Positions 18,651 to 59,087 of a stretch of 64,000 bases of DNA are shown piece by piece. Under the pieces are notes generated by a model. The model made no database searches. It saw nothing but the letters and a program-made list of their open reading frames with translations, and was not told the DNA's origin. Source of the stretch: Prevotella sp. Lineage in GTDB: Bacteria > Bacteroidota > Bacteroidia > Bacteroidales > Bacteroidaceae. The DNA lies in contig JAFYYV010000046.1 of NCBI GenBank assembly GCA_017557405.1, positions 1-64,000 of the forward strand, in the 5' to 3' direction. The number at the start of each line of letters is the position of its first letter. Position 1 is the first letter of the stretch. The position numbers and the translations under genes were made by a program.

Positions 18651-18755
18651 TCATTTGTGGCCTTTGACACGCTCATTCCATAGCTTTGACAGCGTCATTC
18701 CATAGCTTTGACACGCTCATTTGTGGTCTTTGACAGTTCCATTCCATAGCTTTGA
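18651..18755. repeat. 22-bp-pitch array of 17-bp imperfect palindromes, five units
   Basis: Units start at 18651, 18673, 18695, 18717 and 18739, exactly 22 bp apart. The 17-mers are TCATTTGTGGCCTTTGA, TCATTCCATAGCTTTGA (twice), TCATTTGTGGTCTTTGA and CCATTCCATAGCTTTGA. The spacers are CACGC, CAGCG, CACGC and CAGTT. TCA and TGA mark the dyad ends. Confidence 0.8.
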
Positions 18756-18979
18756 CTTAATGATGAATGATTAACATTTTTTATTGCATCCCATTTGGAT
18801 AAATACAAGAATTTTATTGATGAGTTTTTTTGAAGGCTCAATGGTATGTAAGCGCTTGTTCCACAACGATTTATGGGATCGGAAGGAGTTTTTGAGTATT
18901 TTTTCTCAAAAAAAACTAATTAGAAAAAGAGTATAAAACTTTTATTCAATTTGCGGAAAAAACTCTAGGAAACCTTGCG

Positions 18980-19022
18980 AAGAGCCGTCTGACAGGGTGT
19001 TTCGGCGCATCAGACGGCTCTT
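18980..19022. repeat. 13-bp inverted repeat with 17-nt loop
   Basis: AAGAGCCGTCTGA (18980-18992) is repeated exactly in inverted form as TCAGACGGCTCTT (19010-19022). It could form a stable RNA hairpin. There is no T-run directly after it, so it is not a classic terminator. Confidence 0.7.
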
Positions 19023-19264
19023 GAAAAACTCTGAAAAAACTCTTCAAAACGTCTAAGGAACCTTGGAGTTTAGGAATTATTCTTATCATATTCCTTAATT
19101 TCCGAAATCCTTAGGATGTCAAGATAATTCCGAATTTTGGCCTCTAAAAACGGGCCATTGTTTGAAGCAAACGGGATATTGGCCGAAAAAACGCAAAAAA
19201 TCGACATTTTTGGAAATGGCTGATAATCAGCGACTTCCGTTTTTCTTACATTTTTCAGGCCAAC

Positions 19265-19391
19265 CAAAACGATGCTTTTCGGTTGTCAGAAGCGGCTTTT
19301 AAGACCGTCACCTGTAGCTTCTAAGGCTGTCAAATGCGGCAAGTGAGCGGGTAAGAAGCGGCATCTGACACCCTCAGAAGCCGCTTTTTAC
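19265..19391. repeat. 22-bp-pitch array of 17-bp imperfect palindromes, five clear units plus one degenerate
   Basis: Clear units start at 19287, 19309, 19331, 19353 and 19375; a degenerate one starts at 19265. The 17-mers include TCAGAAGCGGCTTTTAA, TCACCTGTAGCTTCTAA, TCAAATGCGGCAAGTGA, TAAGAAGCGGCATCTGA and TCAGAAGCCGCTTTTTA. The 5-bp spacers are GACCG, GGCTG, GCGGG and CACCC. The geometry is that of the 18651 array but the core sequence differs. Confidence 0.75.
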
Positions 19392-19692
19392 AATTCCTCT
19401 CTTCAAAAGTCGGGACGGAAGAGCACGAAAATCGCTATTTCTCCCTCTATTTCACTCTAGAATGAACGATAAAGTTGACAAGAATTTGTAATAATAATTC
19501 GGAATAATTTAGGGGTGGAAAGGGACATAAATCTTCATAAATAGGAACATAAATGAACCGTACAATCCGTGCCGAAAATGTTTTGCATAAGATTTTTTTG
19601 AAAAAAATGCGGAAAGTGATGCAAGATTTCCGAATTTCCACGTTTTACTAATAAAAAGCAATGGATGATTCACTAATAAATATAATGGAAAT

Positions 19693-20367
19693 ATGAAAAC
19701 TAAACGTTTCAATTGGGCCTATATCATAATAGGTATAGTAGGACTGCTGATGGCCTCGTGTGCTGAGGACGACGAGGATGTGGTGGGAGACCTTATTCCT
19801 CAGAACAACGCACAACCCCCCTCTGAACCGTATAAGCCAGTTGCCATTCCTGAGGGAGAGTTTGAAGGTGTGTGGTTCTCTATCGGAAACTACCAAGAGC
19901 CCGTCGATACGGCCATTATGACTGTGAAGAAAAATGGCAGCATGTCGTTTTCGTCGGTACCCTGTGACTCCATTATCAATTTTTTCGCTAAAACATTATC
20001 CAGAGAGTCGGGGGGGCCACCAACGGAATTTGGGAAGGCTCTTGAAGAGAACTTCAAAAGAACAGCTAAATCTACGATAGAGCCGAGTGCAAGTTTCACT
20101 ATTGTGAACACAGCCAATTCCAACACGTCGCTGTTCTTTGAATTGACCGATGAGAGCAAGACGTTCCCGTTGAGAGGAGAAATCTTGGATTATGTATTCG
20201 ATAAAATGACCATTCGGCTGGCTCCTCGCAAGTCGATAGCTGTTTACGATATCATGAATAAGCAGTGGGGGGTGTTCCTCTATTATGAAAGCGCAGTACT
20301 TCATGACATCATTGATTGGCCTTTTGCCCTTGAATATAAATTCATCACAACGAAGAAAATCAAATAA
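19693..20367 (+). CDS. Lipoprotein of unknown function, first of a tandem pair
   Basis: 224 residues with a lipoprotein signal: hydrophobic IIIGIVGLLMASC with the lipid-attachment Cys at 23, followed by an acidic DDEDVV tether and a P-rich linker. The domain from about residue 53 (GEFEGVWFSIGNYQEPVDTA) to the FITTKKIK terminus is shared with the next gene. No known motif was recognised. The two genes are about 5 bp apart and arose by tandem duplication. Confidence 0.82.
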   Translation: MKTKRFNWAYIIIGIVGLLMASCAEDDEDVVGDLIPQNNAQPPSEPYKPVAIPEGEFEGVWFSIGNYQEPVDTAIMTVKKNGSMSFSSVPCDSIINFFAKTLSRESGGPPTEFGKALEENFKRTAKSTIEPSASFTIVNTANSNTSLFFELTDESKTFPLRGEILDYVFDKMTIRLAPRKSIAVYDIMNKQWGVFLYYESAVLHDIIDWPFALEYKFITTKKIK

Positions 20368-20374
20368 TACAATG

Positions 20375-21037
20375 ATGAAGACTAAACGTTTCAATTGGGA
20401 CTGTATCCTCATGTGTGTAGTGGGGCTGCTCGTGGCCTCGTGTGCTGAGGACGACGGGGATGAGGATACATTTGTTCCGCTGCCTCCCTACTCAGAACCT
20501 TATCCACCAGCCGGCTATCCGTATGCTGGTGAGTTCGAAGGCGTGTGGTATTCCATCGGCAACGACAAAGAACCCATCGACACAGCCTATCTGACCGTGA
20601 AGGAATTTGGCTCTATGTCGTTGTCGTCGATACCCTGCGACTCCCTTATTAGTTATTTTGCCGAGTCATGTCTAAGAAAATATACATGGGAAGTGCCTGA
20701 ATGGAGCGACTTGGACGAGAGATTTAGAAGAACGGCTACATCTACGATAGAGACGAGTAATAGTTTCGTTATGGTGTATAGGGAAGAATCCGACAAGTCG
20801 TTCTATTTCGATTTGCCCGACGATACCATGACATTCCCGATGAGAGCGGAAGTCTTAGATCATACTCTCGAATCGTTGGTCATTGGGCTGGCTCCTCGCA
20901 AGTCGGTAGCCGTATTCGATACCACGACAAATCAATGGGGCGTTTTCCTCTACTATAACAAGGCAATTCTTACTGGTATTCTTGAATGGCGTATAGACTT
21001 GGGATATAAATTCATCACAACGAAGAAAATCAAATAA
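20375..21037 (+). CDS. Lipoprotein of unknown function, second of the tandem pair
   Basis: 220 residues from ATG 20375; an adjacent ATG at 20372 is also possible, and the longer frame overlaps the preceding gene. The lipobox is GLLVASC. Landmarks are shared with the preceding lipoprotein: MKTKRFNW at the N-terminus, GEFEGVWYSIGNDKEPIDTA, GSMSLSSIPCDS, LAPRKSVAVFD, QWGVFLYYNKA and FITTKKIK. The region between these landmarks has diverged considerably. An ECF sigma gene starts 23 bp downstream, so the pair may belong to that regulatory unit. Confidence 0.82.
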   Translation: MKTKRFNWDCILMCVVGLLVASCAEDDGDEDTFVPLPPYSEPYPPAGYPYAGEFEGVWYSIGNDKEPIDTAYLTVKEFGSMSLSSIPCDSLISYFAESCLRKYTWEVPEWSDLDERFRRTATSTIETSNSFVMVYREESDKSFYFDLPDDTMTFPMRAEVLDHTLESLVIGLAPRKSVAVFDTTTNQWGVFLYYNKAILTGILEWRIDLGYKFITTKKIK

Positions 21038-21060
21038 TCGACAAACGACGCTCATAAATA

Positions 21061-21600
21061 GTGACTGACCTCACGCTTGTTCATGATATGAAGAAGGGCG
21101 ACCGGACGGCCATGCGCAGGCTCTACGATCGCTATGCGGGATATGCCTTGGCCGTGGCGTCGAGGTATATCCCTGAGCATGAGGAGGTGAGGGACGTGGT
21201 GCAGGACTCTTTTCTGCGCATGCTGACCCACTTGGAGCAGTTCGACTACAAGGGCGAGGGGTCGCTCAGGGCGTGGGTGGCGCGTGTTGTGGCCAACGAA
21301 GCCATCGACCATGTGCGCCGCAACGAGCGGTTCGCGTTTGTCGACGAGATGCCCGACGATGCTGAAGAGGGCGAGCCCGACGTGGAGCGTGTGCCGCCCG
21401 ACGTGCTGACGCAGATGATTGGGCGGTTGCCTGCGGGCTACAGGGTGGTGTTGAACCTGTTCGTCTTCGAACAAATGCCACACAAGGAGATCGCCCGACG
21501 GTTGGGAATCAAGGAGAACTCGTCGGCCTCGCAGTTCTTCCGAGCGAAACAGATGCTGGCCAAAATGATTAACGATTATTTAAAAACAGAACGGATATGA
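21061..21600 (+). CDS. ECF-type RNA polymerase sigma factor
   Basis: 179 residues from GTG 21061. Region 2 includes RRLYDRYAGYALAVASRYI, VRDVVQDSFLRMLTHLEQF and LRAWVARVVANEAIDHVRR. Region 4 includes RLPAGYRVVLNLFVFEQMPH and KEIARRLGIKENSSASQFFRAK. The spelling ENSSASQFFRAKQML is characteristic of the Bacteroidales ECFs paired with barrel-type partners. The stop overlaps the start of the next gene (ATGA at 21597-21600). Confidence 0.92.
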   Translation: MTDLTLVHDMKKGDRTAMRRLYDRYAGYALAVASRYIPEHEEVRDVVQDSFLRMLTHLEQFDYKGEGSLRAWVARVVANEAIDHVRRNERFAFVDEMPDDAEEGEPDVERVPPDVLTQMIGRLPAGYRVVLNLFVFEQMPHKEIARRLGIKENSSASQFFRAKQMLAKMINDYLKTERI

Positions 21601-22973
21601 GCAAAAAAGATTGGACCGAAAAGCTGCGCGACAGATTGGAGAACCACCAGATGGCGGCTCCCGACGATCTGTGGGCTGGCATCGAGGCTGGTCTTGATGC
21701 CGCCGGGAAGGGTCAGCGTGGCGCTGGCTCCCTCCCTAACGGGGAGGGCGGGGGGAGAGGTCCCCGCAAGCGTAGTGCCGTCGTGACGCAATTGCGCCGA
21801 TGGGGCGTTGCTGCCGCCGTTGCCGCCTTGGCCGTGATGGGATGGCAGTTGACGAAGGATGACGCTGCGGCGCCCGACTCCTCTCTGTCGTCCGTGGAAA
21901 CGATGCAGCCGAAGACGCCGGCAACAGGGCACGAGGATGCGATGCTGGCTAAGGCCGAACCGTCGGTTTCGTCAGCGGCGGATGGCACGAATGCTTCTGT
22001 TTCTAAGGTTGCGAATTTCATGGCTTCTTCTGTTTCTAAAGTCGCGGATGACGCGGAGCATAATGTTGTGACAGACCATAACGTTGTCGTAGACAATAAC
22101 CTCGCGGACAACGCGGAAACGAAAGCCCCCGTTCCTGCGGCTTCGGACCATGCGGACACCCCCTCTGCTACGGATAACAACACATCAGATATCCCCTCAG
22201 CTACGAATCCCTCGGCTCATACTACCCAGCCATCATCGGATTTCGGCAATCAACATTCTCCTACGGAGGGAATAGGGACGAATTCCAACATCCCCCTACG
22301 GGGGGGAGCGAGGGGGACTCGCGCAGCAACCCTCGCCCTCTACGGCACCAACGGCCTGGCCGACAGCAAGAACGCCAATGGGGTGAGGATGGCCGAGCCG
22401 ATGGCGAGCCGATATGCGATGGCCGCCGAGTCGATGAAGCGCGGTGCTCCCACACCCGTCATCTACATGGCCGGATACGAGGAGCGCGAGCAGCATCGGC
22501 AACCGTTCTCTGTTGGCTTGTCGGTGGGCATCCCCATCGGCCAGCGCTGGACGGTCACCACGGGACTCGCCTACACGCAGTTGCATGCCGACTTCCTCAA
22601 GATCATGAACAAGCGGAAGCTGGCTACGGAGCAGGATCTGCAGTACGTGGGTTGTCCGGTGAACCTCAACTACAGCATTCTTCAGACCAAACGGCTGCGG
22701 GCCTACGCTGCCGCGGGCGCACAAATGGACGTGAATGTGAAGGCGAAGAGCGTGACCGAGGGTGTGGAGACGGAGATGAAGAAAGACCGCCTGCAGCTCT
22801 CCACGCAGGCCGCCGTGGGCTTGCAGCTCGACGTCATGCCGCAAGTGGGCGTGTACGTGGAGCCAGGCGTGAAATACTATTTCGACAACAATTCCAACGT
22901 CAGCACATTCTTCAAGGACAAGCCTTGCAACTTCAACCTACAAGTTGGCTTGCGCTGGAATTTTGAACATTGA
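21597..22973 (+). CDS. Sigma-linked membrane protein with N-terminal anti-sigma-like segment and C-terminal beta-barrel
   Basis: 458 residues. The cytoplasmic N-terminus (WTEKLRDRLENHQMAAPDDLWAGIE) resembles the sigma-contacting end of ECF partners. A transmembrane helix lies near 64-82 (GVAAAVAALAVMGW), followed by a long low-complexity S/T/N/D linker. The C-terminal part (about 300-458) is beta-barrel-like: FSVGLSVGIPIGQRWTVTTG, GVYVEPGVKYYF, LQVGLRWNFEH. Two GC-rich palindromic repeats are read in frame (SLPNGEGGGRG and NIPLRGGARGT). The single-chain join of anti-sigma segment and barrel is notable. Translation is coupled to the sigma gene. Confidence 0.82.
   Translation: MSKKDWTEKLRDRLENHQMAAPDDLWAGIEAGLDAAGKGQRGAGSLPNGEGGGRGPRKRSAVVTQLRRWGVAAAVAALAVMGWQLTKDDAAAPDSSLSSVETMQPKTPATGHEDAMLAKAEPSVSSAADGTNASVSKVANFMASSVSKVADDAEHNVVTDHNVVVDNNLADNAETKAPVPAASDHADTPSATDNNTSDIPSATNPSAHTTQPSSDFGNQHSPTEGIGTNSNIPLRGGARGTRAATLALYGTNGLADSKNANGVRMAEPMASRYAMAAESMKRGAPTPVIYMAGYEEREQHRQPFSVGLSVGIPIGQRWTVTTGLAYTQLHADFLKIMNKRKLATEQDLQYVGCPVNLNYSILQTKRLRAYAAAGAQMDVNVKAKSVTEGVETEMKKDRLQLSTQAAVGLQLDVMPQVGVYVEPGVKYYFDNNSNVSTFFKDKPCNFNLQVGLRWNFEH
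21723..21768. repeat. GC-rich palindromic arm in frame in the sigma-linked gene (1)
   Basis: CTCCCTCCC, TAACG and GGGAGGGCGGGGGGAG encode LPNGEGGG in the region before the transmembrane helix. It resembles the Bacteroidetes GC-rich palindrome family seen at 23833 and 25013. Confidence 0.55.
22257..22320. repeat. GC-rich palindromic arms in frame in the sigma-linked gene (2)
   Basis: Two palindromic pieces lie about 20 bp apart: CTCCTACGGAGGG, then CATCCCCCTACGGGGGGG. They are translated as SPTEGIG and NIPLRGGARG in the disordered linker. Their inverted pairing resembles the head/tail arrangement of the elements at 41527 and 44308. Confidence 0.5.
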
Positions 22974-23378: not shown

Positions 23379-23505
23379 CAAAAGACCACAAATGACAGGC
23401 TCAAAGCTATGCAATGAAGTGCTCAAAGCTATGCAATGAGCCCCTCAAAGCTATGCAATGAGCCCCTCAAAGCTATGCTTTGACTCATTCAGATGATAGC
23501 TATGA
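23379..23505. repeat. 22-bp-pitch array of 17-bp palindromes, six units
   Basis: Units start at 23379, 23401, 23423, 23445, 23467 and 23489. Three consecutive units are TCAAAGCTATGCAATGA and the fifth is TCAAAGCTATGCTTTGA, a perfect 17-bp palindrome about its centre. The outer units are degenerate. The spacers are CAGGC, AGTGC, GCCCC, GCCCC and CTCAT. The array ends 10 bp from the stop codon of the convergent minus-strand gene. Confidence 0.85.
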
Positions 23506-23515: not shown

Positions 23516-25096
23516 TTATTTGCTCAGATGGTTCACGTATTTGACGGGATCGACATCCTGTTTGAGGACGTCGGCGATGTTTTGCGGTTTCAGTTTGACG
23601 GGGCCGCTCATGAACTCGGGGATGTTGTAGCTCTTCATGAGTTGGCGATGATAGTCGGGGTCTTTGGAGGGCAGCTCGAAGGGTTTGGTGCTCTGCATGT
23701 TCTCGTCGATGTGGGCGATGAAGGGGCGTGTGTAAACGCCGTCGGTGCGGCGCGTGGAGAAGATGACCCATCGGCCGTTGCTCGACCAGGAGTGGTAGCT
23801 CTCGGTGTTGTCGCTGTTGAGGGCTTCAACGGGAGCCCCCTCCCATCCTCCCCCCGTAGGGGAGGTGTTCAGGTCGATGGCCCAGAGGTCGGCATCGCGA
23901 TGCCAGATGTGGAAGCAGCCCCATCCGCCGAGGGTGAAGAGGAGCCAGCGCCCGTCGGGTGAGATGCGGGGCAGGGTGGCACTCTTGTCGATGGCTGCGG
24001 CGTCGAACACCAATTCGCGTGGTCCGAACTCACGTTTGTCGATATCGAAGGGTTTGCGATAGATGTTGTATTTGATTTCCTTGGCGCGGGCGATGGTCTC
24101 GGAGGAGTTGACGGTGTCGGCGCTGTATTCGAAGTGGGCGCTGCAATAGTAGAGCCATTTGCCGTCGGGCGACCAGAAGGGGAAGACCTCGAACTCTTTC
24201 TTGTCGTTCTCGATGTTCATCACCTCGTTGCGCTCAACATCGTAGATGATGAGGTCGCTCTCGGAGTCGAAGACCTCGATTTTGTCAATGTCGCGCGTGT
24301 GGAACGTCTGCTGCGTCTTGTTGGTGGAGTAGGCGATGATCTTGAGCCAGGGGTGCCAGCTGGGATAGACGCCGGCGGAGAGGATGGAGTCGTTGCGCAT
24401 GTTCACCTTGTGAGGTTTGCCCTCATCGACGACGATGGTGCCTCCGTGGCTCTGGCGTGCGTGGAACTGCATCTGCTGGGGGTTGTACATCTGGTAGTTG
24501 TGGCAGTTGATGCATTGTCCGTTGACCTCGTCGCCGCAGAGCATGTTGTCGTAGATGACGCTCTCGTCGTAGTTCTCGAGGCAGCGTTGGTTGATGGTGA
24601 GCTCCTCGTAGGTGACATAGGAGGGCGAGATGAGTCGGTAGCTGATGTAGGGGTCGATGGAGTCGGGCGAGACGAATATCTCGAAGGGTTTGTAGCGCGT
24701 CCACGCGCCGTTTGCCTGTGCGAACACTTCCACCTTCAGGCTTTTGCCCTTTGCCTTGGCGGTCAATGCCTTCCAATCGTCGATGTCGGGTTGGGCCTTG
24801 ATGCCTCCCAGAACGATCTCCTCGTCGCCAAACGAATAGCGGGTGACGGCATCGTCGGCCTGGCTGCGCAACTCAATGGAGAGGGGCGCGATGTTCACAG
24901 GGATGGTGACGCCAACGTAGTCGGGGTAGATGTCGGGCGACTGCTGGCTGTCGGTGAACTGCGTGGGGATGCTGGCTCCCTGGCAGGCGGTGAGGAGGAG
25001 AAGGAGGAAGGCTAAGACCCCCCAGCCCCCCTGTTTAGGGGGGAATGAGTTATGGAAGATGGATGAAGGTTTTTTTGATGAGGGTATTGTAATCAT
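23516..25096 (-). CDS. PD40/TolB-like lipoprotein with a c-type haem motif
   Basis: 526 residues. The lipobox is LLLTAC (Cys38). The N-terminal half is a beta-rich domain (55-160). A CINCH motif at 195-199 matches the CxxCH haem c attachment site. The C-terminal half holds PD40-type propeller repeats (FPFWSPDGKWLYYCSA, LPRISPDGRWLLFTLGG, HSWSSNGRWVIFSTRR). Bacteroidetes homologues are usually called TolB- or PD40-domain proteins and neighbour DUF6057 genes, as here. The start lies in a GC-rich palindrome that encodes part of the signal peptide (PPKQGGWG). A second palindrome encodes SPTGGGWEG in a propeller loop. Redox or heme function is inferred from CxxCH only. Confidence 0.85.
   Translation of the reverse strand: MITIPSSKKPSSIFHNSFPPKQGGWGVLAFLLLLLTACQGASIPTQFTDSQQSPDIYPDYVGVTIPVNIAPLSIELRSQADDAVTRYSFGDEEIVLGGIKAQPDIDDWKALTAKAKGKSLKVEVFAQANGAWTRYKPFEIFVSPDSIDPYISYRLISPSYVTYEELTINQRCLENYDESVIYDNMLCGDEVNGQCINCHNYQMYNPQQMQFHARQSHGGTIVVDEGKPHKVNMRNDSILSAGVYPSWHPWLKIIAYSTNKTQQTFHTRDIDKIEVFDSESDLIIYDVERNEVMNIENDKKEFEVFPFWSPDGKWLYYCSAHFEYSADTVNSSETIARAKEIKYNIYRKPFDIDKREFGPRELVFDAAAIDKSATLPRISPDGRWLLFTLGGWGCFHIWHRDADLWAIDLNTSPTGGGWEGAPVEALNSDNTESYHSWSSNGRWVIFSTRRTDGVYTRPFIAHIDENMQSTKPFELPSKDPDYHRQLMKSYNIPEFMSGPVKLKPQNIADVLKQDVDPVKYVNHLSK
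23833..23872. repeat. GC-rich palindromic arm in frame in the PD40 gene
   Basis: CCCCTCCCATCCTCCCCCCG followed by TAGGGGAGG is read on the minus strand as TSPTGGGWEGAP in a loop between propeller strands. The host blade motifs on both sides remain intact. Confidence 0.55.
25013..25046. repeat. GC-rich palindromic arm inside the signal-peptide coding region
   Basis: CCCCCCAGCCCCCC, TGTTTA and GGGGGG form a hairpin. On the minus strand it is read as PPKQGGWGV, just before the hydrophobic LAFLLLLLTAC core. It has therefore lengthened the n-region of the signal peptide and may have supplied the present start. Confidence 0.6.
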
Positions 25097-29663: not shown

Positions 29664-30142
29664 AAAAGCCTCCCCAAGCCCCTCCCAAGGAGGGGGTGTT
29701 TGATTACATATTTATGTTATTAACGATTTTATTATTATAGACATAACAGATTCCATATCTGTCAACACTTGATGATTCGTAAAACGAATGACACGATAAC
29801 CCTTACCCTGTAGATAGTCTGTACGATATTGGTCAACCAACTGTTGTTCTGAGGTCTGATGATACTCGCCATCCACCTCAATGACAAGATGATTTTTCAG
29901 AGAAACGAAATCAGCGATATATGTCCCTATGACATGCTGGCGGCGGAAATGAATACCCAGCTTGTTTCCCTTTAACACCTGCCAGAGCTTGTCTTCAGCA
30001 GGTGTCATAGGCTTGCGGTTCTTCACTGCGTTATTCTCCACTGCAGTATAAGCCAACGCATCGGCAGTTGCCCATTTCATTCTCTTTTCTTCGTCCATCA
30101 GCTATCTAAACATCCCTCCCTTGGGGAGGGCTTGGGTAGGCT
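29664..30142 (-). mobile_element. Inverted-repeat element carrying a DUF559 endonuclease gene
   Basis: The tail arm 29667-29698 (GCCTCCCCAAGCCCCTCCC, then AAGGAGGGGG) and head arm 30111-30141 (minus-strand GCCTACCCAAGCCCTCCCC, then AAGGGAGGG) form an inverted pair enclosing only the DUF559 gene. Both arms are themselves palindromic. Inside the arms, GATTACATA and CTATCTAAACATCC match the inner flanks of the gene-less copy at 44308. The head arm abuts the rfbB stop codon and the tail arm sits 7 bp from the purT start, so the element has inserted between two same-strand genes. Confidence 0.7.
29712..30098 (-). CDS. DUF559 (Vsr-like) endonuclease-fold protein
   Basis: 128 residues. The core reads MTPAEDKLWQVLKGNKLG, FRRQHVIGTYIADFVSLKNHLVIEVDGEYH, then YRTDYLQGKGYRVIRFTN. 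IADFVS...LVIEVDG carries the Asp and Glu-x-Asp residues expected of the PD-(D/E)xK-like catalytic centre of DUF559, related to Vsr mismatch nickases. The start codon is 12 bp inside the head arm of the surrounding inverted repeat. It is the only gene in the element. DNA nicking is inferred from the fold; no target is known. Confidence 0.85.
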   Translation of the reverse strand: MDEEKRMKWATADALAYTAVENNAVKNRKPMTPAEDKLWQVLKGNKLGIHFRRQHVIGTYIADFVSLKNHLVIEVDGEYHQTSEQQLVDQYRTDYLQGKGYRVIRFTNHQVLTDMESVMSIIIKSLIT

Positions 30143-31274
30143 ATCTGTTCTTGTACATTTGTTCGTAATACTTCTGGTAATCACCTGATGTGACATTGTC
30201 CAGCCACTCCTGGTTGTCCAAATACCAGCGGACAGTCTTCTCGATGCCTTCCTCGAATTGCAGACTTGGCTCCCAACCGAGTTCGCGTTGCAATTTCGTG
30301 GAGTCAATCGCATAGCGCAGATCATGTCCGGCACGGTCGGTGACAAAGGTAATGAGGTTCATGTCCTCACCCTCCTGGCGGCCCAACAGACGGTCAACGG
30401 TGTTAATCAAAACCTTGATGATGTCGATGTTCTTCCATTCGTTGAAGCCACCGATGTTGTAGGTCTCGGCAATCTTTCCTTCATGGAAAATGAGATCGAT
30501 GGCACGAGCATGATCCTCCACAAACAACCAGTCGCGCACGTTCTCGCCCTTGCCATAGACAGGGAGCGGTTTGCGGTGGCGGATGTTGTTGATGAAGAGC
30601 GGAATGAGCTTCTCAGGGAACTGATAAGGTCCGTAGTTGTTCGAGCAGTTGGTCACTACCACGGGCATACCGTATGTATCGTGGTAGGCGCGCACGAAGT
30701 GGTCGCTCGAGGCCTTGGCAGCACTATACGGCGAATGAGGATTGTACTTAGTTGTCTCCACGAAGAATTTATCACCATAAGCCAGATGATGCTCAGCACT
30801 CGAGGCGGTGGTGGTGAATGGCGGCTCTATGCCTTCAGGATGCGACAATTCCAAAGCGCCATACACCTCATCGGTGGAGATGTGGTAGAAGCGTTTGCCT
30901 TCATATTTCTCGGGCAACGACTCCCAATAGAGTTTGGCTGCCTGCAAGAGCGACAAGGTGCCCATCACGTTGGTCTTGGCAAACGTGAAGGGGTCTTTGA
31001 TGGAGCGGTCCACGTGAGACTCGGCAGCCAAATGGATGATGCCATCCACCTTCTTGTCCTGCATGAGCTGGTAGAAGGCCTCGAAGTCGCATATGTCCAT
31101 CTTCACGAACTCGTAGTTGGGTTTGTCCTCGATATCCTTCAAGTTGGCCAGATTGCCCGCATACGTCAGTTTGTCGAGGTTGATGATGTTGTACTCGGGA
31201 TACTTGTTTACAAACAGGCGCACCACGTGGCTTCCAATGAAGCCTGCGCCACCAGTAATGACGATTGTCTTCAT
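30141..31274 (-). CDS. rfbB: dTDP-glucose 4,6-dehydratase RfbB
   Basis: 377 residues of the extended SDR family. The NAD loop is TGGAGFIGS (residues 7-15). The active-site STDEVYG is at 133-139 and Tyr183/Lys187 in YSAAK. NCSNNYGPYQFPEKLIPLFI and the NIGG motif are typical of RfbB. It makes dTDP-4-keto-6-deoxyglucose for surface polysaccharide synthesis. It has about 25 more residues than the usual 350. No rfbA, rfbC or rfbD lies in the window. The stop codon abuts the DUF559 element. Confidence 0.95.
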   Translation of the reverse strand: MKTIVITGGAGFIGSHVVRLFVNKYPEYNIINLDKLTYAGNLANLKDIEDKPNYEFVKMDICDFEAFYQLMQDKKVDGIIHLAAESHVDRSIKDPFTFAKTNVMGTLSLLQAAKLYWESLPEKYEGKRFYHISTDEVYGALELSHPEGIEPPFTTTASSAEHHLAYGDKFFVETTKYNPHSPYSAAKASSDHFVRAYHDTYGMPVVVTNCSNNYGPYQFPEKLIPLFINNIRHRKPLPVYGKGENVRDWLFVEDHARAIDLIFHEGKIAETYNIGGFNEWKNIDIIKVLINTVDRLLGRQEGEDMNLITFVTDRAGHDLRYAIDSTKLQRELGWEPSLQFEEGIEKTVRWYLDNQEWLDNVTSGDYQKYYEQMYKNR

Positions 31275-35765: not shown

Positions 35766-35980
35766 TCATTTGCGGCAAATGAAGCCGTCACTTGTGGCTT
35801 CTTGTCAAGTAAAATAATTTATTTTACTCGATAAAATAATTTATTTTACACGGCAAAATAATTTATTTTACTTTGCAAAATAATTTATTTTACCACATCA
35901 TATGTATGGAGTGACAACACAAGAGACCATAAGTGACAACGCAAGAGGCCGAAAATGAGGATACAAAAGGCCATAAGTGA
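35766..35980. repeat. 22-bp-pitch array of 17-bp palindromes, ten units, with a changing core
   Basis: Units start every 22 bp from 35766 to 35964. The first is TCATTTGCGGCAAATGA. The third to sixth are TAAAATAATTTATTTTA or the same with an initial C. The seventh is TCATATGTATGGAGTGA. The last ones are CAAGAGACCATAAGTGA, CAAGAGGCCGAAAATGA and CAAAAGGCCATAAGTGA. The spacers (AGCCG, TCAAG, CTCGA, CACGG, CTTTG, CCACA, CAACA, CAACG, GGATA) are always 5 bp. It lies between convergent genes. Confidence 0.88.
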
Positions 35981-41526: not shown

Positions 41527-41672
41527 GGCCTACCCAAGCCCTCCCCAAGGGAGGGGGGGTAAATTCATGAAGAATGGGTGTGAATAGATGAAAGAATGAA
41601 GGAAGAGCAATTTCAATCGAAGAATTCAGGTAATCAGACATCCCCTCTTCGGGAGGGGCTTGGGGAGGCTCA
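41527..41672. mobile_element. Gene-less inverted-repeat element that spans the xseA start
   Basis: The head arm 41527-41560 (GCCTACCCAAGCCCTCCCC) and tail arm 41641-41672 (minus-strand GCCTCCCCAAGCCCCTCCC) are inverted around about 80 bp. The arms are of the same two classes as in the DUF559 element. The inner flank of the tail arm (minus strand GATGTCTGATTACC) matches the inner flank of that element's tail arm. The xseA ATG at 41596 is inside it. Confidence 0.65.
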
Positions 41673-42963
41673 TGTCCTATCTTTATACGAACTGAACCAG
41701 ATGGTGGGCGAGGTGATTAGCATCTCGATGCCAGACGACTATTGGGTGGAAGCCGAATTGTCGGAGGCTCGTGAGGTGCGTGGGCACTGCTATATGGAAT
41801 TGGTGCAGAAGGACCTCTTTGGCAACACGCCCGTGGCGCGTGCTTCGGCAAAGTGTTGGAAGAGCACTTGGATGCAGATTCGCCCCCGATTCGAACGGGT
41901 GACAGGACAGCAGTTGCACGCGGGCATGAAGGTGATGCTCAAGGTGACTGCCGACTTCCATGCTGCTTATGGATTCTCGTGGATTGTCAACGATATAGAC
42001 CCTACCTACACGATGGGCGACATGGCTCGCAGGCGGCTGGAGATTGTCAACCAACTGCGACAGGAGGGTGTGTTCGATTTGCAGAAGGAGCTCGAAATCC
42101 CGATGTTCGCCCAACGCATAGCGGTGGTGTCGAGTGAGAATGCAGCTGGATATGGCGATTTCTGCAACCAATTGGCCGACAACGAATACGGTTTCGTGTT
42201 TCGCACAAGGCTGTTCCCTGCCATCATGCAAGGCGAGCAGGTGGAGCAGAGTGTGATTGCCGCCCTGAACGCCATTAACGAGGAGATTGACGATTTCGAT
42301 GTGGTGGTCATCATTCGCGGTGGAGGTGCTACTGCCGACTTGTCAGGCTTCGATACGCTGGCGTTGGCGGAGAATGTGGCCAACTTCCCTTTGCCCATCA
42401 TCACAGGCATCGGACACGACCGAGATGAGAGCGTGCTGGACATGGTTTCGCACACGCGTGTAAAAACGCCCACAGCGGCTGCCGCCTTCTTGATAGACCA
42501 TCTGGCTGAGGTGGATACCATCATCGACAATTGCCTGTCGGACATCGTGGCTTGCGTGAATCGGCGCATGGAGATGGAACGCATGCGGTTGGAGCGCCTT
42601 TCTGGGAAGATTCCCTTGATGTTCTCGTTGGTGAAGAGTCAGCAGACGGCGCGGCTGGATGCTTTTTCGGCTCGGTTGTCAGCTTCGTGTAAGGAGCAAT
42701 TGCTGAGGGCAGCCCATCAGGTGGACGTGTTGGAGGCTGGAATACCATCGGCAGCCATGCAGCGAATGATGGTGGAGCGCCATCGGATTGACATGATGGA
42801 GCAACGCGCCAAGGCCCTTGATCCACATCTGCTCTTGAAGCGAGGATACAGCATTACGATGCATGAAGGCAAGGTGGTGCGCGATGCCAGTGGGTTGAAG
42901 GCAGGTGATGAGATTGAGACCCGATTGGAGAAAGGGCGAGTGAAGTCGGTAGTCAAAAATTAA
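41596..42963 (+). CDS. xseA: Exodeoxyribonuclease VII large subunit XseA
   Basis: 455 residues. An OB-fold N-terminal domain (about 27-130, LSLYELNQMVGEVI...YWVEAELSE) precedes the catalytic domain (RIAVVSSENAAGYGDF, FDVVVIIRGGGATADLSGFD, PIITGIGHDRDESVLD, KTPTAAAAFLID) and a C-terminal helical region. It degrades single-stranded DNA into oligonucleotides with XseB, encoded 34 bp downstream. The first 26 residues, including TSPLREGLGEAH, are not family sequence. They derive from the GC-rich repeat element, which also supplies the start codon. Confidence 0.95.
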   Translation: MKEEQFQSKNSGNQTSPLREGLGEAHVLSLYELNQMVGEVISISMPDDYWVEAELSEAREVRGHCYMELVQKDLFGNTPVARASAKCWKSTWMQIRPRFERVTGQQLHAGMKVMLKVTADFHAAYGFSWIVNDIDPTYTMGDMARRRLEIVNQLRQEGVFDLQKELEIPMFAQRIAVVSSENAAGYGDFCNQLADNEYGFVFRTRLFPAIMQGEQVEQSVIAALNAINEEIDDFDVVVIIRGGGATADLSGFDTLALAENVANFPLPIITGIGHDRDESVLDMVSHTRVKTPTAAAAFLIDHLAEVDTIIDNCLSDIVACVNRRMEMERMRLERLSGKIPLMFSLVKSQQTARLDAFSARLSASCKEQLLRAAHQVDVLEAGIPSAAMQRMMVERHRIDMMEQRAKALDPHLLLKRGYSITMHEGKVVRDASGLKAGDEIETRLEKGRVKSVVKN

Positions 42964-43288: not shown

Positions 43289-44305
43289 ATGAAAAATCTG
43301 GATTGGGGTAGTCTGTCGTTCGGATACATGAAGACCGACTACAATGTACGTTGTTACTATCGCGATGGTAAATGGGGCGAGATCGAGGTTTGCTCCGATG
43401 AGTATCTGAATCTGCACATGGCTGCCACATGTCTGCACTACGGACAAGAGGCTTTCGAAGGTTTGAAGGCCTATCGTTGTCCTGATGGCAAGGTGCGCGT
43501 TTTCCGCATGGAAGAGAATGCCGCCCGCCTGCAGTCAACCTGTCGTGGCATCATGATGCCCGAGGTCAGCACAGAGTTGTTCTGCGAGATGGTGAAAAAG
43601 GTGGTGCGCCTGAATCAGGAGTGGATTCCCACTTATGAGAGTGGTGCCACGCTCTACATCCGTCCGTTGCTCATCGGTACGAGCGCCCAGGTGGGTGTGC
43701 ATCCCGCCAAGGAGTATTGCTTCCTGATCTTCGTCACTCCCGTAGGCCCGTACTTCAAGGGTGGCTTCGCTGCCAATCCTTATGTCATCATCCGCGACTT
43801 TGACCGTTCGGCTCCTCTGGGAACTGGTAAATATAAGGTGGGTGGCAACTATGCCGCTTCTCTCTTTGCCAACAATTTGGCTCACGAGAAGGGCTACGCT
43901 TGCGAATTCTATCTTGACGCCAAGGAGAAGAAATACATGGACGAGTGTGGTGCTGCCAACTTCTTCGGCATCAAGGAAAACACGTATGTCACACCAAAAT
44001 CATCCAGCATCCTGCCCTCTATCACCAACAAGAGTTTGATGCAGGTGGCTGAGGATCTGGGCATGAAAGTGGAGCGTCGCCCGATTCCTGAAGAGGAACT
44101 CGAGACCTTCGAGGAGGCTGGTGCCTGCGGAACAGCAGCCGTCATCTCACCCATCTCTTATATCGATGACCTCGATACTGGCAAGCGTTATTCGTTCGGT
44201 GAGAAGCCTGGTCCATTGTCTAAGAAACTCTTCGATACGCTTCGTGGTATCCAATATGGAGAGATTGAGGACAAGCACGGCTGGACAACGGTAGTGATTG
44301 AATAA
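43289..44305 (+). CDS. ilvE: Branched-chain amino acid aminotransferase IlvE
   Basis: 338 residues of fold-type IV PLP aminotransferases, class II (long) BCAT type. The PLP lysine is Lys183 in TGKYKVGGNYAAS. GQEAFEGLKAYR, LYIRPLLIG, the EYCFLIFVTPVGPYF block and DECGAANFFG are all present. It transfers amino groups between glutamate and the branched-chain keto acids. Its own promoter precedes it. A gene-less repeat element separates it from trmB. Confidence 0.96.
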   Translation: MKNLDWGSLSFGYMKTDYNVRCYYRDGKWGEIEVCSDEYLNLHMAATCLHYGQEAFEGLKAYRCPDGKVRVFRMEENAARLQSTCRGIMMPEVSTELFCEMVKKVVRLNQEWIPTYESGATLYIRPLLIGTSAQVGVHPAKEYCFLIFVTPVGPYFKGGFAANPYVIIRDFDRSAPLGTGKYKVGGNYAASLFANNLAHEKGYACEFYLDAKEKKYMDECGAANFFGIKENTYVTPKSSSILPSITNKSLMQVAEDLGMKVERRPIPEEELETFEEAGACGTAAVISPISYIDDLDTGKRYSFGEKPGPLSKKLFDTLRGIQYGEIEDKHGWTTVVIE

Positions 44306-44307
44306 AA

Positions 44308-44398
44308 AGCCTACCCAAGCCCTCCCAAAGGGAAGGATGTTGGATTACATAAATAACTATTTAAACATCCCCCCCTTGGGAGGGGCTTGGGGAGGCTC
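44308..44398. mobile_element. Gene-less short copy of the inverted-repeat element
   Basis: The head arm 44308-44338 and tail arm 44366-44398 are inverted around about 28 bp (GGATTACATAAATAACTATT and so on). That inner sequence resembles the joined inner flanks of the DUF559 element at 29664, as if the gene were missing. It lies between ilvE and trmB and could form a long RNA hairpin acting as a terminator. Confidence 0.65.
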
Positions 44399-44412
44399 TA
44401 GAGTTCTTATAT

Positions 44413-48939: not shown

Positions 48940-49044
48940 TCAAAGGCTACAAATGAGGTTGTTAAAGCTATGCTTTGACGTCCTTAAAGCTATGCTTTGA
49001 GGGGCTCAGATGCCATATGTAAGACCCTCAGATGCCACCTTTGA
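48940..49044. repeat. 22-bp-pitch array of 17-bp palindromes, five units
   Basis: Units start at 48940, 48962, 48984, 49006 and 49028: TCAAAGGCTACAAATGA, TTAAAGCTATGCTTTGA twice, TCAGATGCCATATGTAA and TCAGATGCCACCTTTGA. The spacers are GGTTG, CGTCC, GGGGC and GACCC. The array starts 11 bp after the Mrp stop codon. Confidence 0.82.
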
Positions 49045-49186
49045 CAGAGCAATCGTATGCGCTCCCAAAACAATGCTTTATCATCCGAAAATGGTGGTTT
49101 TTGATTCATTTTCGTGGAAAGTCGGCACAAAACAACCACTTATCGGCATCTTCTGGAATGGCAATTTCGGGGCAAAATCCATGCGT

Positions 49187-49503
49187 GTGACAATTGGGAC
49201 AATTAGACACCCCTTTTTTGCGTGCCCCAATTTTGAGTTATTCGCGCATGGAGTTGATTATCAATAAGTTACAATAATTAATTATTAATAATTAATAATA
49301 ATTATATATATATTAACATATATATTATATTATATATATACATTTATATAGATATATAGATAGATTTAGTTGTTTCTATCTCTATTTTCAGCTGGAAAAA
49401 CTGCTACTTGAAAACAGCCTCAATCATGTTCAATGGTCAATGTTCAATGTTCAATGATTTCCGACCGTGTAAAAAACGACTGTCTAATTGTCACAATTGT
49501 CAC
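49187..49503. repeat. AT-rich core bracketed by a 23-bp inverted repeat
   Basis: Positions 49187-49209 and 49481-49503 are inverted copies with one mismatch, built from two TGACAATT-type units each. Between them lie about 120 bp of TTAATAATTA/TATATA sequence (49265-49365) and ATGTTCAATGTTCAATG simple repeats (49425-49455). The element ends 3 bp before the stop codon of the permease gene. It parallels the elements at 1-155 and 23094-23347. The rest of 48930-49505 has no gene. Confidence 0.72.
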
Positions 49504-55797: not shown

Positions 55798-55880
55798 TTA
55801 AAGCATAGCTTTGACCCTCTCAAAGATATGCTTTGACTGCCTCATTGCTATGCTTTGACAAGCTCAAAGCATAGCTTTCA
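55798..55880. repeat. 22-bp-pitch array of 17-bp palindromes, four units
   Basis: Units start at 55798, 55820, 55842 and 55864: TTAAAGCATAGCTTTGA, TCAAAGATATGCTTTGA, TCATTGCTATGCTTTGA and TCAAAGCATAGCTTTCA. The spacers are CCCTC, CTGCC and CAAGC. A degenerate fifth unit may begin at 55886. Here the array lies between divergent genes, about 50 bp upstream of the cydAB promoter. The rest of 55596-55797 is AT-rich without a gene. Confidence 0.85.
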
Positions 55881-55962: not shown

Positions 55963-55991
55963 CGAAAAATATATAGAAACCCTTACACGCC

Positions 55992-56213
55992 ATGAAGAAA
56001 AACAGTTTCCTGTATCGGGTTTTCGATCTTTACTACGATGGTTTCCGCCACATGACTCTGGGCAAGACGCTCTGGGCGGTCATCCTCATCAAGCTCTTCA
56101 TCATTTTTGTGGTGTTGAAACTCTTCTTTTTCCCTGATTTCCTGAAATCCAATGCGCCCGAGGGTGGCGAAGCAGAGTATGTATCTACGGAATTGTTGAA
56201 TCGGACAAACTAA
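55992..56213 (+). CDS. DUF4492 small membrane protein of the cyd operon
   Basis: 73 residues. A conserved FLYRVFDLYYDGFRHMTLGKTLW segment precedes one transmembrane helix (VILIKLFIIFVVLKLFFF). DUF4492 genes typically precede cydA in Bacteroidetes and epsilonproteobacteria. It may be a small accessory subunit of cytochrome bd, analogous to CydX, but that is inference. cydA starts 12 bp downstream. Confidence 0.9.
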   Translation: MKKNSFLYRVFDLYYDGFRHMTLGKTLWAVILIKLFIIFVVLKLFFFPDFLKSNAPEGGEAEYVSTELLNRTN

Positions 56214-56225
56214 TACTATTACCAT

Positions 56226-57827
56226 ATGACAAACTTATTGCTTGACATCACAACAGGTACGATAGATTGGGCGAGGGCGCAATTTGCCCTCACGGCCATC
56301 TATCACTGGCTTTTCGTGCCGCTCACATTGGGCTTGGCGGTCATCATGGGCATCATGGAGACCTGCTATTATCGCACGAAGAAGCGATTCTGGAAAGACA
56401 CGGCCAAATTCTGGCAGAAACTCTTTGGCGTCAATTTCGCGATGGGTGTAGCTACGGGCATCATCCTCGAATTTGAGTTTGGAACCAACTGGAGCAACTA
56501 TTCTTGGCTTGTGGGCGACATCTTCGGAGCTCCGCTGGCCATCGAGGGCATCATCGCCTTCTTCATGGAGAGCACGTTCGTAGCTGTGATGTTCTTCGGA
56601 TGGAACAAGGTCTCGCGTGGCTTCCACCTCGCTTCCACGTGGCTCACAGGTCTTGGAGCCACCATCTCGGCTTGGTGGATTTTGGTGGCTAATGCTTGGA
56701 TGCAGAACCCTGTGGGTTGCGAATTCAATCCCGACACTATGCGTAATGAGATGGTTTCGTTCGTTCAAGTGGCATTGTCGCCCTTTGCTGTAGGCAAGTT
56801 CTTCCATACGGTCACATCTTCTTGGATTATAGGTGCCATCTTCACGGTGGCCGTCAGCTGTTGGTATCTGATGAAGAAACGCGAACAGAAGATGGCTGTC
56901 GAGAGTTTGAAGATTGGCGCTGTTGTTGGAATGGTGGCTTCGTTGTTGGCTGCTTTCACGGGTCATCTTTCTGGTGAGCAGGTTGCCAAGTCTCAACCGA
57001 TGAAGTTGGCGGCTATGGAGGCGCTTTACAATGGTGGAACCGATCAGAGCCTGACGGCTGTGGCGTGGGTGAATCCTTTCAAACAACCCGATTATGCCAA
57101 CGAGGAGGAACCTTCTTTGCGCATCGCAATGCCCTACGCGCTCTCAATCATGGCTACGCGCGACATTCATGGTTATGTGCCGGGCGTGAACGATCTGCTC
57201 AAGGGTTATACGCTTCCTGATGGAACGCAAGAGATTTCTTATGAGGAGAAAATCAAGCGTGGGCGGTCGGCCATCTATTCGCTGATGACTTATCGCAATG
57301 CGAAGAAGACAGGAAACGAGGGTGCGGCCGAATCGAGTTTGAAGAATCTTCGCGAGAATATGCCGTATTTCGGCTATGGATACGTAAAGAGCACCGACCA
57401 GCTAGTGCCTTTCATCCCCGTCTGCTTCTGGTCATTCCGCATCATGGTGGGATTGGGTTGCCTGTTCATCTTGTTCTTCGCGCTCGTTTTGTATTTGGTT
57501 CGTAAAGACCAGTTGTATCGTTTCAAGTGGTTGCCTTATGTTGCCATTGCGTTGGTTCCTCTGGGTTACATCTGTAGCGAAGCGGGTTGGATAGTAGCCG
57601 AGATGGGGCGCCAGCCTTGGACAATACAAGACATGCTCCCCACGTGGGCGGCTGTGAGTAATCTGAATGCAGGTTCTGTGGCCTTCACGTTCTTCTTGTT
57701 CCTCATCTTGTTCACCACCATGTTGGCTGTTGAGATCAGCATTCTTCTGAAGGAAATCAAGAAAGGTCCTAAACTCTCTGTGGAAGCTCCCGAAAAGGAA
57801 GTGAGCGTTGAAATCAGTGAATCGTGA
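56226..57827 (+). CDS. cydA: Cytochrome bd quinol oxidase subunit I CydA
   Basis: 533 residues, nine-helix CydA type. Haem-ligand and quinol-loop landmarks are visible: ARAQFALTAIYHWLFVPLTLGLA (haem histidine), GVATGIILEFEFGTNWSNYSW and the diagnostic AGWIVAEMGRQPW. It oxidises quinol and, with CydB, reduces oxygen to water with high affinity, allowing respiration or oxygen scavenging at trace oxygen levels. It is second of three genes. Confidence 0.97.
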   Translation: MTNLLLDITTGTIDWARAQFALTAIYHWLFVPLTLGLAVIMGIMETCYYRTKKRFWKDTAKFWQKLFGVNFAMGVATGIILEFEFGTNWSNYSWLVGDIFGAPLAIEGIIAFFMESTFVAVMFFGWNKVSRGFHLASTWLTGLGATISAWWILVANAWMQNPVGCEFNPDTMRNEMVSFVQVALSPFAVGKFFHTVTSSWIIGAIFTVAVSCWYLMKKREQKMAVESLKIGAVVGMVASLLAAFTGHLSGEQVAKSQPMKLAAMEALYNGGTDQSLTAVAWVNPFKQPDYANEEEPSLRIAMPYALSIMATRDIHGYVPGVNDLLKGYTLPDGTQEISYEEKIKRGRSAIYSLMTYRNAKKTGNEGAAESSLKNLRENMPYFGYGYVKSTDQLVPFIPVCFWSFRIMVGLGCLFILFFALVLYLVRKDQLYRFKWLPYVAIALVPLGYICSEAGWIVAEMGRQPWTIQDMLPTWAAVSNLNAGSVAFTFFLFLILFTTMLAVEISILLKEIKKGPKLSVEAPEKEVSVEISES

Positions 57828-57854
57828 ATATAGAAATCAAAACAATCAAGCCTT

Positions 57855-58997
57855 ATGACATACGTTTGTTTACAACAATATTGGTGGTTCCTGGTTTCGT
57901 TGTTAGGAGCCTTGTTGGTCTTCCTCATGTTCGTGCAGGGAGCCAACTCCATGATTTTCCAGTTGGGGCGCGATGCTGAAGAGCGTCGTATGCTTATCAA
58001 TTCAACTGGTAGGAAATGGGAGATCACGTTCACCACGCTCGTTACTTTTGGTGGTGCGTTCTTCGCTGCTTTCCCGTTGTTCTATAGCACCAGCTTTGGT
58101 GGCGCCTATTGGTTGTGGATGATTATCTTGTTCTCGTTTGTCTTGCAAGCTGTCAGCTATGAGTTCCAAAACAAATTGGGCAACCTGCTGGGCACTCGTA
58201 CATTCCAGATTTTCCTGGTCATCAACGGCATCTTGGGTCCGCTGTTGTTGGGTGGAGCGGTGGCTACATTCTTCACGGGAAGCAATTTCATCGTGGAGCG
58301 CGACAACATCTTCCAAATGGCACAACCAGTCATCAGCCGATGGGCGAATGCTTCCAACGGCCTTGATGCATTGCTCGATCCGTGGAACATTGTGTTCGGA
58401 TTGGCTGTGTTCTTCTTGGCGAGGGTGTTGGGAATCCTTTATATCATGAATAATGTGAACGATGAGAACATCCGTTCGCGCGGTAGTGTGCAACTGATTG
58501 GCAATTCGATCATCTTCCTGATTCTCTTCTTGGCTTTCTTCATCCGCACTTTGCTGGGATACGGCTATGCTTACGATCCGCAGACGGGTGTTGTTGGCAT
58601 TGTTGAAGGGAAATACTGGCAGAACCTCATGGATATGTGGTATCTGGTGGTAGGCATCTTGGTGGGTGTTGTCCTGTTGCTCTATGGTATTGTGCGCACC
58701 ATTGTTTCCAAGACCTACATACGTGGAATTTGGCCTGCAGGCATTGGTGTGGTCATCGTAGTGTTGTGCTTGCTGTTGTGTGCAGGTTGGAACAACACGT
58801 GCTATTATCCTTCAAACGAAGATTTGCAGAGTTCGCTTCACATCATGAATTCATGCTCCAGTGAGTTCACTTTGCGCACGATGGCGTGGGTCAGCCTTTT
58901 CATTCCCTTTGTCTTGGCTTACATCGCCTATGCTTGGCGTGCACTCGACAGCAAGAAGATTGACCGTGATGAGATGAAACGAGGCGACATCTATTGA
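57855..58997 (+). CDS. cydB: Cytochrome bd quinol oxidase subunit II CydB
   Basis: 380 residues with about eight or nine hydrophobic helices. The N-terminal QQYWWFLVSLLGALLVFLMFVQGANSM is typical of CydB. ITFTTLVTFGGAFFAAFPLFYSTSFGGAYW corresponds to the conserved second helix. It pairs with CydA as the structural half of the oxidase. It ends 8 bp before the next 22-bp array. No cydC or cydD ABC genes lie in the window. Confidence 0.95.
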   Translation: MTYVCLQQYWWFLVSLLGALLVFLMFVQGANSMIFQLGRDAEERRMLINSTGRKWEITFTTLVTFGGAFFAAFPLFYSTSFGGAYWLWMIILFSFVLQAVSYEFQNKLGNLLGTRTFQIFLVINGILGPLLLGGAVATFFTGSNFIVERDNIFQMAQPVISRWANASNGLDALLDPWNIVFGLAVFFLARVLGILYIMNNVNDENIRSRGSVQLIGNSIIFLILFLAFFIRTLLGYGYAYDPQTGVVGIVEGKYWQNLMDMWYLVVGILVGVVLLLYGIVRTIVSKTYIRGIWPAGIGVVIVVLCLLLCAGWNNTCYYPSNEDLQSSLHIMNSCSSEFTLRTMAWVSLFIPFVLAYIAYAWRALDSKKIDRDEMKRGDIY

Positions 58998-59004
58998 TAA
59001 AAAG

Positions 59005-59087
59005 AATACAGGGGCTTTGTACGAGTTGTACATGGCCCCTGTATTGTCAGTATATGCCGCTTGTATTAGTAATACATGCCACATGTA
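59005..59087. repeat. 22-bp-pitch array of 17-bp palindromes, four units
   Basis: Units start at 59005, 59027, 59049 and 59071: AATACAGGGGCTTTGTA, TGTACATGGCCCCTGTA, AGTATATGCCGCTTGTA and AATACATGCCACATGTA. The spacers are CGAGT, TTGTC and TTAGT. The first two units also pair with each other as ATACAGGGGC and GCCCCTGTAT. It fills the gap between convergent cydB and the lipoprotein gene, and may double as a terminator. Confidence 0.75.

Follow-up and report, generated by a model that had tools for sequence, protein, structure and literature searches.

How can a family of repeats keep an exact spacing while the repeated sequence itself changes from one array to the next? This question is raised by a 64,000-bp stretch of one contig (JAFYYV010000046.1; hereafter the window) of a Prevotella sp. 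genome of 3.56 Mb (99.89% complete), in which an initial annotation had described seven intergenic arrays of short palindromic units on an exact 22-bp register. All seven are present on that register (Table 1). Their assignment to four convergent and three divergent gaps agrees with the open reading frame (ORF) map when the short ORFs 49010-49267 (overlapping array 5) and 55983-56225 are set aside; if these are counted, our script types the gaps of arrays 5 and 6 as co-directional. Gene gaps were defined throughout from ORFs called by a length rule without a gene finder. The closest relatives found for the ApbC-like protein of the window belong to Prevotella communis (88%) and uncultured Prevotellaceae (87% or less). 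Genomes are numbered G###, the home genome being G000, and the loci compared L###. The reading we favour, to which we give an even chance, is that the arrays are one-faced, dyad-symmetric sites for a putative architectural protein and have been spread by copying.

The strongest new result of the analysis is that unrelated cores mix on one register. Array 4 consists of at least ten units with two unrelated cores in a single register, with a possible eleventh unit from 35744. Its central block is one of nine home-genome arrays that hold three to four TAAAATA...TATTTTA units each and are flanked in phase by degenerate TCA-type units. Around these nine arrays, TCA stands at unit phase 0 in 18/33 (binomial p 3.7e-16) and TGA at unit phase 14 in 13/24 (binomial p 5.5e-12), p-values that serve as guides, thresholds having shifted between scripts during exploration. 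When 54 flanking units of the home genome were chosen by register alone, they yielded the symmetric motif YYANAKSNNNSMTNTRR, with 7.36 bits compared with 1.06 ± 0.20 at random phase (maximum of 500, 1.85). This motif has A at positions 3 and 5, S at 7 and 11, and T at 13 and 15, seen in 46, 35, 42, 42, 42, and 49 of the 54 units, respectively. Positions 3 and 15 retain their base in 85-91% of the flanking units and positions 1, 2, 16, and 17, which vary little or not at all in the fresh TCA family, in 43-52%; such uneven retention suggests constraint. In-register mixing also occurs in another species, as in G066 two TAAAACAA...TTGTTTT arrays continue in register with a TAAA-type unit belonging to that species. 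Among the five G028 loci or stretches inspected, one (L258) has further in-register units after its array, and none were recognised in the rest.

The 22-bp pitch stands out throughout the home genome. In 460 kb, runs of three 17-bp dyads were found seven times at a pitch of 22 and five times at 33; none of the 18 further pitches tried from 17 to 50 gave more than three. The initial annotation had named a shuffled-sequence comparison as a check on the periodicity, and one Markov-shuffled set gave no case at 22 against the seven real ones. Tandem similarity in intergenic DNA peaks likewise at lags 22 (41) and 44 (29), every other lag from 12 to 60 giving 0-13. Genome-wide, the pattern TCA-N11-TGA-N5-TCA-N11-TGA-N5-TCA has 191/190 matches (reversed control, 0/0), overlapping matches within one array being counted separately, and across 39 other genomes it was found once each in G014 and G049 only, G014 also having one control match. 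One 19-letter unit, with up to three mismatches allowed, matches the home genome 84/121 times and its reversed control never. TCA.{11}TGA matches less than 70 bp apart in the home-genome sample are spaced by 22 (61), 44 (42), or 66 bp (27) only, and 115 further matches stand isolated. The window arrays thus belong to a larger system than the seven. Densities taken from the 20 home-genome stretches are biased, as these were partly placed on known matches.

The proposal of a constant geometry with a changing core holds beyond this genome. Across 80 Prevotellaceae loci, three dyads in a row occurred 17 times at pitch 22, ten times at 33, six times at 44, and at most four times at each other pitch tried, with none at 22 in one shuffled set. 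Nine of the ten 33-bp cases fall in loci with a 22-bp array and are mostly that array at a half-unit offset; at least one of the 17 cases at pitch 22 (L057) looks like chance. The cores mostly differ, including TAAAAGGCGGCCTTTTA, CAAAATCGGCGATTTTG, TTTCCACGGCGTGGAAA, GTTTGAAGCCTCCAAAC (two loci), CAAAGTCAATGAGTTTG, and others. Palindromic tandem pairs, counted only if they had at least 25% GC, numbered 21 at lag 22 (17 loci) and 16 at lag 44 (12 loci), and 0-3 at each of the remaining 36 lags from 12 to 49. Similarity alone, with no palindrome test, gives 54 pairs at lag 22 and also 43 at lag 14, 39 at 21, 28 at 28, and 26 at 42, while G028 has 20 at lag 16 and 19 at lag 22; the competing lags are 7- and 8-bp step repeats which blur the picture. 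The palindromic share separates them, being 43% at lag 22 and 46% at lag 44 in the 80 loci and 0-9% at the 13 other lags tested.

The distribution of the arrays across Prevotellaceae is patchy. Lag-22 pairs are palindromic in 10/20 cases in G066, 8/14 in G067, 8/13 in G028, and 3/9 in P. communis, and pass the dyad cut-off in 2/14 in G003, 0/6 in G016, and 0/3 in G024. S. copri has three such pairs in one stretch, one of them palindromic, X. ruminicola has a single non-palindromic pair, and the S. buccae sample has none. G066 and G067 were picked because one locus each had arrays; stretches of G028, G012, G065, and partly G003 were placed partly on known matches or match-bearing contigs, and several of the 20 stretches in one sample are short (range 422 to 20,000 bases). 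No lag-22 excess was seen outside the family in a small sample of 20 genomes from other Bacteroidales families (272,622 bp; two pairs, none palindromic). The strict two-unit TAAAAYA pattern was found in the home genome only among 201 family genomes, a set without G028 and G066, which do carry TAAAAYA-type arrays, and in no viral contig. Counts of the YAAA...TTTR pattern are not clean evidence in G000 (16/15 against 17/17 for the reversed control), G066 (135/141 against 32/32), G069 (1/2 against 279/276), or G028 (5/4 against 3/3); they are clean in G012 (16/15, control 0/0) and G065 (28/30, control 1/1).

Do the palindromes act as DNA or as RNA? RNA hairpin strings had been among the roles first proposed, here in the form of small hairpins in 3' untranslated regions serving as terminators or stabilisers. 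RNA or cruciform hairpins would need matched changes in the two arms. When right arms were shuffled among units in four genomes, pairing within units was not significantly above the shuffled level in any (z -3.9, -0.7, -0.8, and +1.4), a result that bears on the inner positions, the outer ones being fixed by the search pattern. The first value is that of the home genome, where shuffling raises pairing (z 0.3 with unique units only), and the last, slightly favourable to pairing, that of G028. A hairpin role is thereby disfavoured, and each arm appears instead to act as a half-site of its own, taken from a set of alternatives (TCAAAGC, TCATTGC, TCATTCC, TCATTTG...). Some units (AAAAGGC...GCCTTTT) do resemble bidirectional terminators, array edges often lie close to stop codons (see below), and, by eye, class I units three and five (from the dispersed element described below) often approximate each other's reverse complement. 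Against this, the commonest home units pair at only 4-5/8 positions, arrays are present in divergent gaps too, and Rfam gave no gathering match in the window and nine matches at E up to 0.5 in four loci, none on an array. Terminator-like sites outside arrays occur in 7/32 array-bearing and 39/118 array-free convergent gaps, so that no clear replacement of intrinsic terminators is evident, and the arm shuffle gives no significant sign of the covariation that should keep the stem arms of intrinsic terminators. Altogether we regard an RNA role as very improbable. Separately, several structured-RNA models match L166 8638-8816 (G067) below gathering scores, which is probably due to an inverted repeat there.

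DNA shape and location bring in a different candidate. The 11-bp GC component exceeds the 22-bp one in 93/121 arrays, with a consistent phase (R 0.81) and a peak at the dyad, the corresponding shares being 56% for random palindromes and 58% for intergenic stretches taken at random; in most groups, GC peaks at the unit centre and at the spacer. Arrays occupy 35/155 convergent, 33/505 co-directional, and 25/222 divergent gaps, a convergent preference with a length-stratified odds ratio of 4.2, and they sit nearer stop codons (median 94 bp, 28/96 under 50) than start codons (median 243 bp, 2/62 under 50). Both the 11-bp period and the convergent excess would suit topology elements like BIME-2 (a bacterial interspersed mosaic element), in which an AT/GC alternation extending for some 80-220 bp would promote wrapping by DNA gyrase (or HU), only phased bendability counts, the core is irrelevant, and gyrase removes positive supercoils between converging genes. 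Gyrase comes into question since its Escherichia coli motif, in the accessible part of the source, is a 130-bp symmetric pattern with a 10.75-bp GC periodicity, and since BIME-2 elements contain gyrase sites and are enriched for gyrase cleavage (PMC6379681). The same text reports that the BIME-2 gyrase signal rose, rather than fell, on transcription inhibition (PMC6379681). Moreover, the species-specific identity of the arrays at most positions goes beyond what bendability needs, unless copying accounts for it. In the home genome the 11-bp component shows weakly, at 0.15 compared with 0.12 for the 22-bp one, and leads in 11/16 arrays; in P. communis it is not dominant, exceeding the 22-bp one in 1/4 arrays only. 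We consider wrapping by gyrase a plausible though unlikely explanation of the arrays.

Copying has clearly contributed. Two kinds of array exist, bare runs of units and arrays within a dispersed element of 358 bp (class I), in which roughly seven units in kept order stand between a conserved leader and a conserved tail. Besides the query, ten copies align with it (79-85% identity) starting at its position 1 and ending at 356-359, figures that come from 11 of 188 candidate copies scored; at least 17 copies exist, as six of the ten aligned copies fall outside the scored set. By eye, each end of the 12 aligned copies has ACAAA in direct orientation, and clear inverted ends are lacking. Leader and tail are conserved around the array in class I only, and no shared flanks were discerned among the other arrays inspected. 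Across 59 other genomes, class I matched only G012, with two short matches, and it matched no plasmid or phage record. Two alternative flanks, GCTGAAAAAACACG or AGTATTTTTATTT, precede ACAAA upstream of class I copies (edges of L134, L139, L140, L142, and L144). Several copies of the second flank type have further downstream sequence in common, so the dispersed unit may exceed 358 bp.

Slippage or gene conversion had also been proposed for the origin of the arrays, and neighbouring units are direct-like rather than inverted-like in G000 (74 to 9), G066 (18 to 5), and G028 (11 to 5), though not in G067 (2 to 8); long hairpins between neighbours are thus not the rule. The arrays might then be a selfish or neutral satellite, growing by slippage, quasi-palindrome arm repair by template switching, and the spread of class I and similar elements, with selection only purging insertions near promoters and the 22-bp pitch inherited from one ancestral array within which cores turn over. 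That account, which we hold to be plausible though unlikely, gains from the direct-like neighbours (74/83 informative pairs in the home genome), the presence of class I in any gap type, the avoidance of start codons, and the absence of positional conservation across the gaps compared, and it would expect in-register mixed-core arrays as the residue of layered expansion. It fits poorly with an exact register that persists in degenerate units with few symmetric positions left, with the absence of off-register distances where TCA-type units lie less than 70 bp apart in the home-genome sample, and with one pitch shared by mostly unrelated cores in 17/80 loci. The spacer vocabulary is also partly common while arms differ, although shared descent would give the same: the top 20 spacers of G000 make up 65% of 20 in G066, 38% of 8 in G012, 23% of 13 in G067, and 0% of 19 in G028, with a background of 2.9%. 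Slippage or copying contributes to the arrays and is insufficient alone to explain a single pitch shared by unrelated cores.

Of the three roles first proposed, an array for a DNA-binding protein remains the best, and the protein is one that we infer. In this reading, each 22-bp unit would be a dyad-symmetric site of two half-sites about one helical turn apart, followed by a 5-bp spacer, and since a 22-bp unit spans two helical turns every site of an array would lie on one face of the helix. A symmetric (dimeric) architectural protein of Prevotellaceae could then bind neighbouring sites next to one another. What would be required is the register together with A/T at about 6 and 4 bp on each side of the dyad, leaving the other bases free to drift or be swapped, so that each lineage would gain its own core. 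Units may be gained through tandem duplication and when whole elements disperse, with selection tolerating or favouring arrays at gene ends, chiefly between convergent genes, where bound arrays could form topological or transcription barriers.

Several points weigh against this reading. Pitch, register, symmetry, freely combining arms, the 11-bp GC alternation of most arrays, and gene-end location are observed, and the protein, its binding, and the barrier role are inferred from the arrays. The motif of the flanking units could reflect decay of a homogeneous older array with no current constraint, an older consensus with fewer fixed positions would give a similar unevenness of base retention, and identity between flanking units is 0.392 at the same offset and 0.373 at different offsets. 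The convergent excess stems mainly from array-rich genomes and is weak in the 80 loci alone (7/77 convergent, 14/247 co-directional, and 8/127 divergent gaps), and three control lags pooled under the same criterion gave 6 convergent, 14 co-directional, and 4 divergent gaps. To these are added the minor share of the 11-bp component in P. communis and the gaps of class I (4 divergent, 7 co-directional, 2 convergent, and 1 contig edge; n = 14), whose occurrence in every type looks like that of a spreading element. Comparison of three window gaps with orthologous gaps in 3, 5, and 7 other genomes revealed a single further array (G028, after cydB). Array conservation was also rejected for the orthologous apbC gap, as among 33 long-enough gaps lag 22 was best in a tie-shared 4.7 and lag 19 in 3.6, which is mostly noise.

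Repetitive extragenic palindromic (REP) and BIME elements of enterobacteria resemble the arrays in having palindromic units arrayed between genes. Their sequence is species-specific, and we know of no fixed 22-bp pitch or in-register mixing of unrelated cores among them. A REP-associated tyrosine transposase (RAYT, Y1) origin is not clearly supported: the home genome has a single partial match to Y1, scoring 24.9 bits (cut-off 23), and in this one case the nearest degenerate array is about 970 bp away with another ORF between. Clustered regularly interspaced short palindromic repeats (CRISPR) have near-identical repeats and unique spacers far longer than 5 bp, whereas the arrays have recurring 5-bp spacers.

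The closest described elements are BrickBuilt and PINSR. BrickBuilt is a minisatellite miniature inverted-repeat transposable element (MITE) of Porphyromonas gingivalis, also found in P. gulae, that is intergenic and dispersed with 23-nt tandem units, and the accessible text mentions earlier 22-nt repeats in P. gingivalis W83 (PMC4596501). Like the arrays, it comprises tandem short units between genes, with or without a conserved leader and tail, a layout shared by class I only. As far as this text goes, BrickBuilt units are 23-nt direct repeats without spacers and with IS5-like terminal inverted repeats, and constant geometry with a changing core was not found described there. The arrays differ in their dyad-symmetric units, in cores that vary across the family, and in a class I element that lacks clear terminal inverted repeats; with a pitch of 22 and no clear insertion sequence-like ends by eye, they depart from a BrickBuilt-type MITE. 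PINSR is a 188-bp repeat of Prevotella intermedia and P. nigrescens with 177 and 184 intergenic copies in two strains, according to the part of the source consulted (PMC4755523). It is likened to class I by description rather than sequence, both being intergenic, lineage-specific, and without terminal inverted repeats. In the accessible part of the open-licence literature on such repeats, named elements, gyrase, and 11-bp periodicity, with most subscription papers outside it, no description of a constant pitch with a changing core was found.

Within the window, the units are less uniform than first described. Dyads are present in all arrays, yet the label of 17-bp palindrome is loose: 7-8/8 pairs match in TAAAATAATTTATTTTA units, 5-7 in AAAGC...GCTTT units, and only 3-4 in array 1, the constant part of which is TCA...TGA. 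The 17 + 5 geometry gives way to 15-bp palindromes with 7-bp spacers in array 7, where the 22-bp pitch is kept. Arrays 1 and 2 share one divergent gap, and the tail of the diverged class I copy around array 2 has 71% identity across 140 columns with the home query copy. Array 3 has its edge 10 bp from the stop codon of gene 23516-25096.

Table 1. Arrays of the window and the class I copy; the apbC-like and cydA-like labels rest on model scores under the cut-off, and the cydB label of the gene before array 7 comes from position alone
Feature	Position	Strand	Description
Array 1	18651-18755	+	Five TCA-type units, 22-bp pitch; divergent gap 18275-19692
Class I element, diverged copy	19117-19474	-	Leader, array 19265-19391, and tail
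Array 2	19265-19391	-	Inside class I element; different core (TTAGAAGC/TCAGAAGC type), pitch unchanged
Array 3	23379-23505	-	Six units, mostly TCATTGCATAGCTTTGA read on the minus strand; convergent gap
Array 4, composite	35766-35980		Two TCA-type, four T/CAAAATAATTTATTTTA (35810-35892), and four degenerate TCA-type units
Array 5	48940-49044		Five units; convergent gap; begins 10 bp past the stop codon of the apbC-like gene
Array 6	55798-55880	+	Four AAAGC..GCTTT-type units; divergent gap upstream of a cytochrome bd subunit I-like gene (cydA)
Array 7	59005-59087		Four 15-bp palindromes (TACATGCCACATGTA type), 22-bp pitch; most of convergent gap 58998-59102

Other repeats accompany the arrays. 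Adjoining array 1, a TTCCCGAGCAAGCTCGCCTACCCGTAGCCTTTCA stretch at 18609-18642 is found again in the home genome and has matches in P. communis (97%) and X. ruminicola (92-97%). A second palindromic element, dispersed and unlike the 22-bp arrays, is AGCCTCCCCAAGCCCCTCC-NAA-GGAGGGGATGT, which lies at 29664-29700, 30109-30143, 41560-41673, and 44304-44400; it is common to the home genome, G003, and G028, with tens of BLAST matches in G003, mostly of 88-97% over about 36 bases. At 49426-49458 and downstream, a 7-bp ATGTTCA-step repeat is followed by a conserved GATTTCCGACCGTGTAAAAAACGACTGTCTAAT stretch, as also at L095 15349, and the GATTTCCGACCGTGTAAAAAACGACTGTCTAAT stretch recurs elsewhere in the home genome. 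Repeats of ATTTGACC stand within about 85 near-identical bases at three neighbouring sites (12049-12084, 14672-14707, and 16418-16453), one of them inside a BspA-type leucine-rich-repeat gene (12000-14603).

Repeats are usually recognised by a common sequence, and here they are recognised by geometry. As the conserved trait is spacing and symmetry, a sequence-based repeat search misses the relation between species. A fixed spacing with a changing unit sequence suggests that something reads the geometry of the DNA. In a family-wide form of this idea, tentative and in our view somewhat unlikely, a Prevotellaceae nucleoprotein would act as a "ruler" that reads 11-bp-phased dyads at an exact two-turn spacing at gene ends; its specificity would evolve fast, the sites would co-evolve with it through in-register replacement, and geometry would be inherited while sequence would not. 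Should a protein or gyrase read the pitch, the arrays would offer a ready-made map, rich in copies, of an activity that organises the chromosome in rumen, gut, and oral bacteria; should they be neutral, they would be a bacterial parallel to layered satellite turnover.

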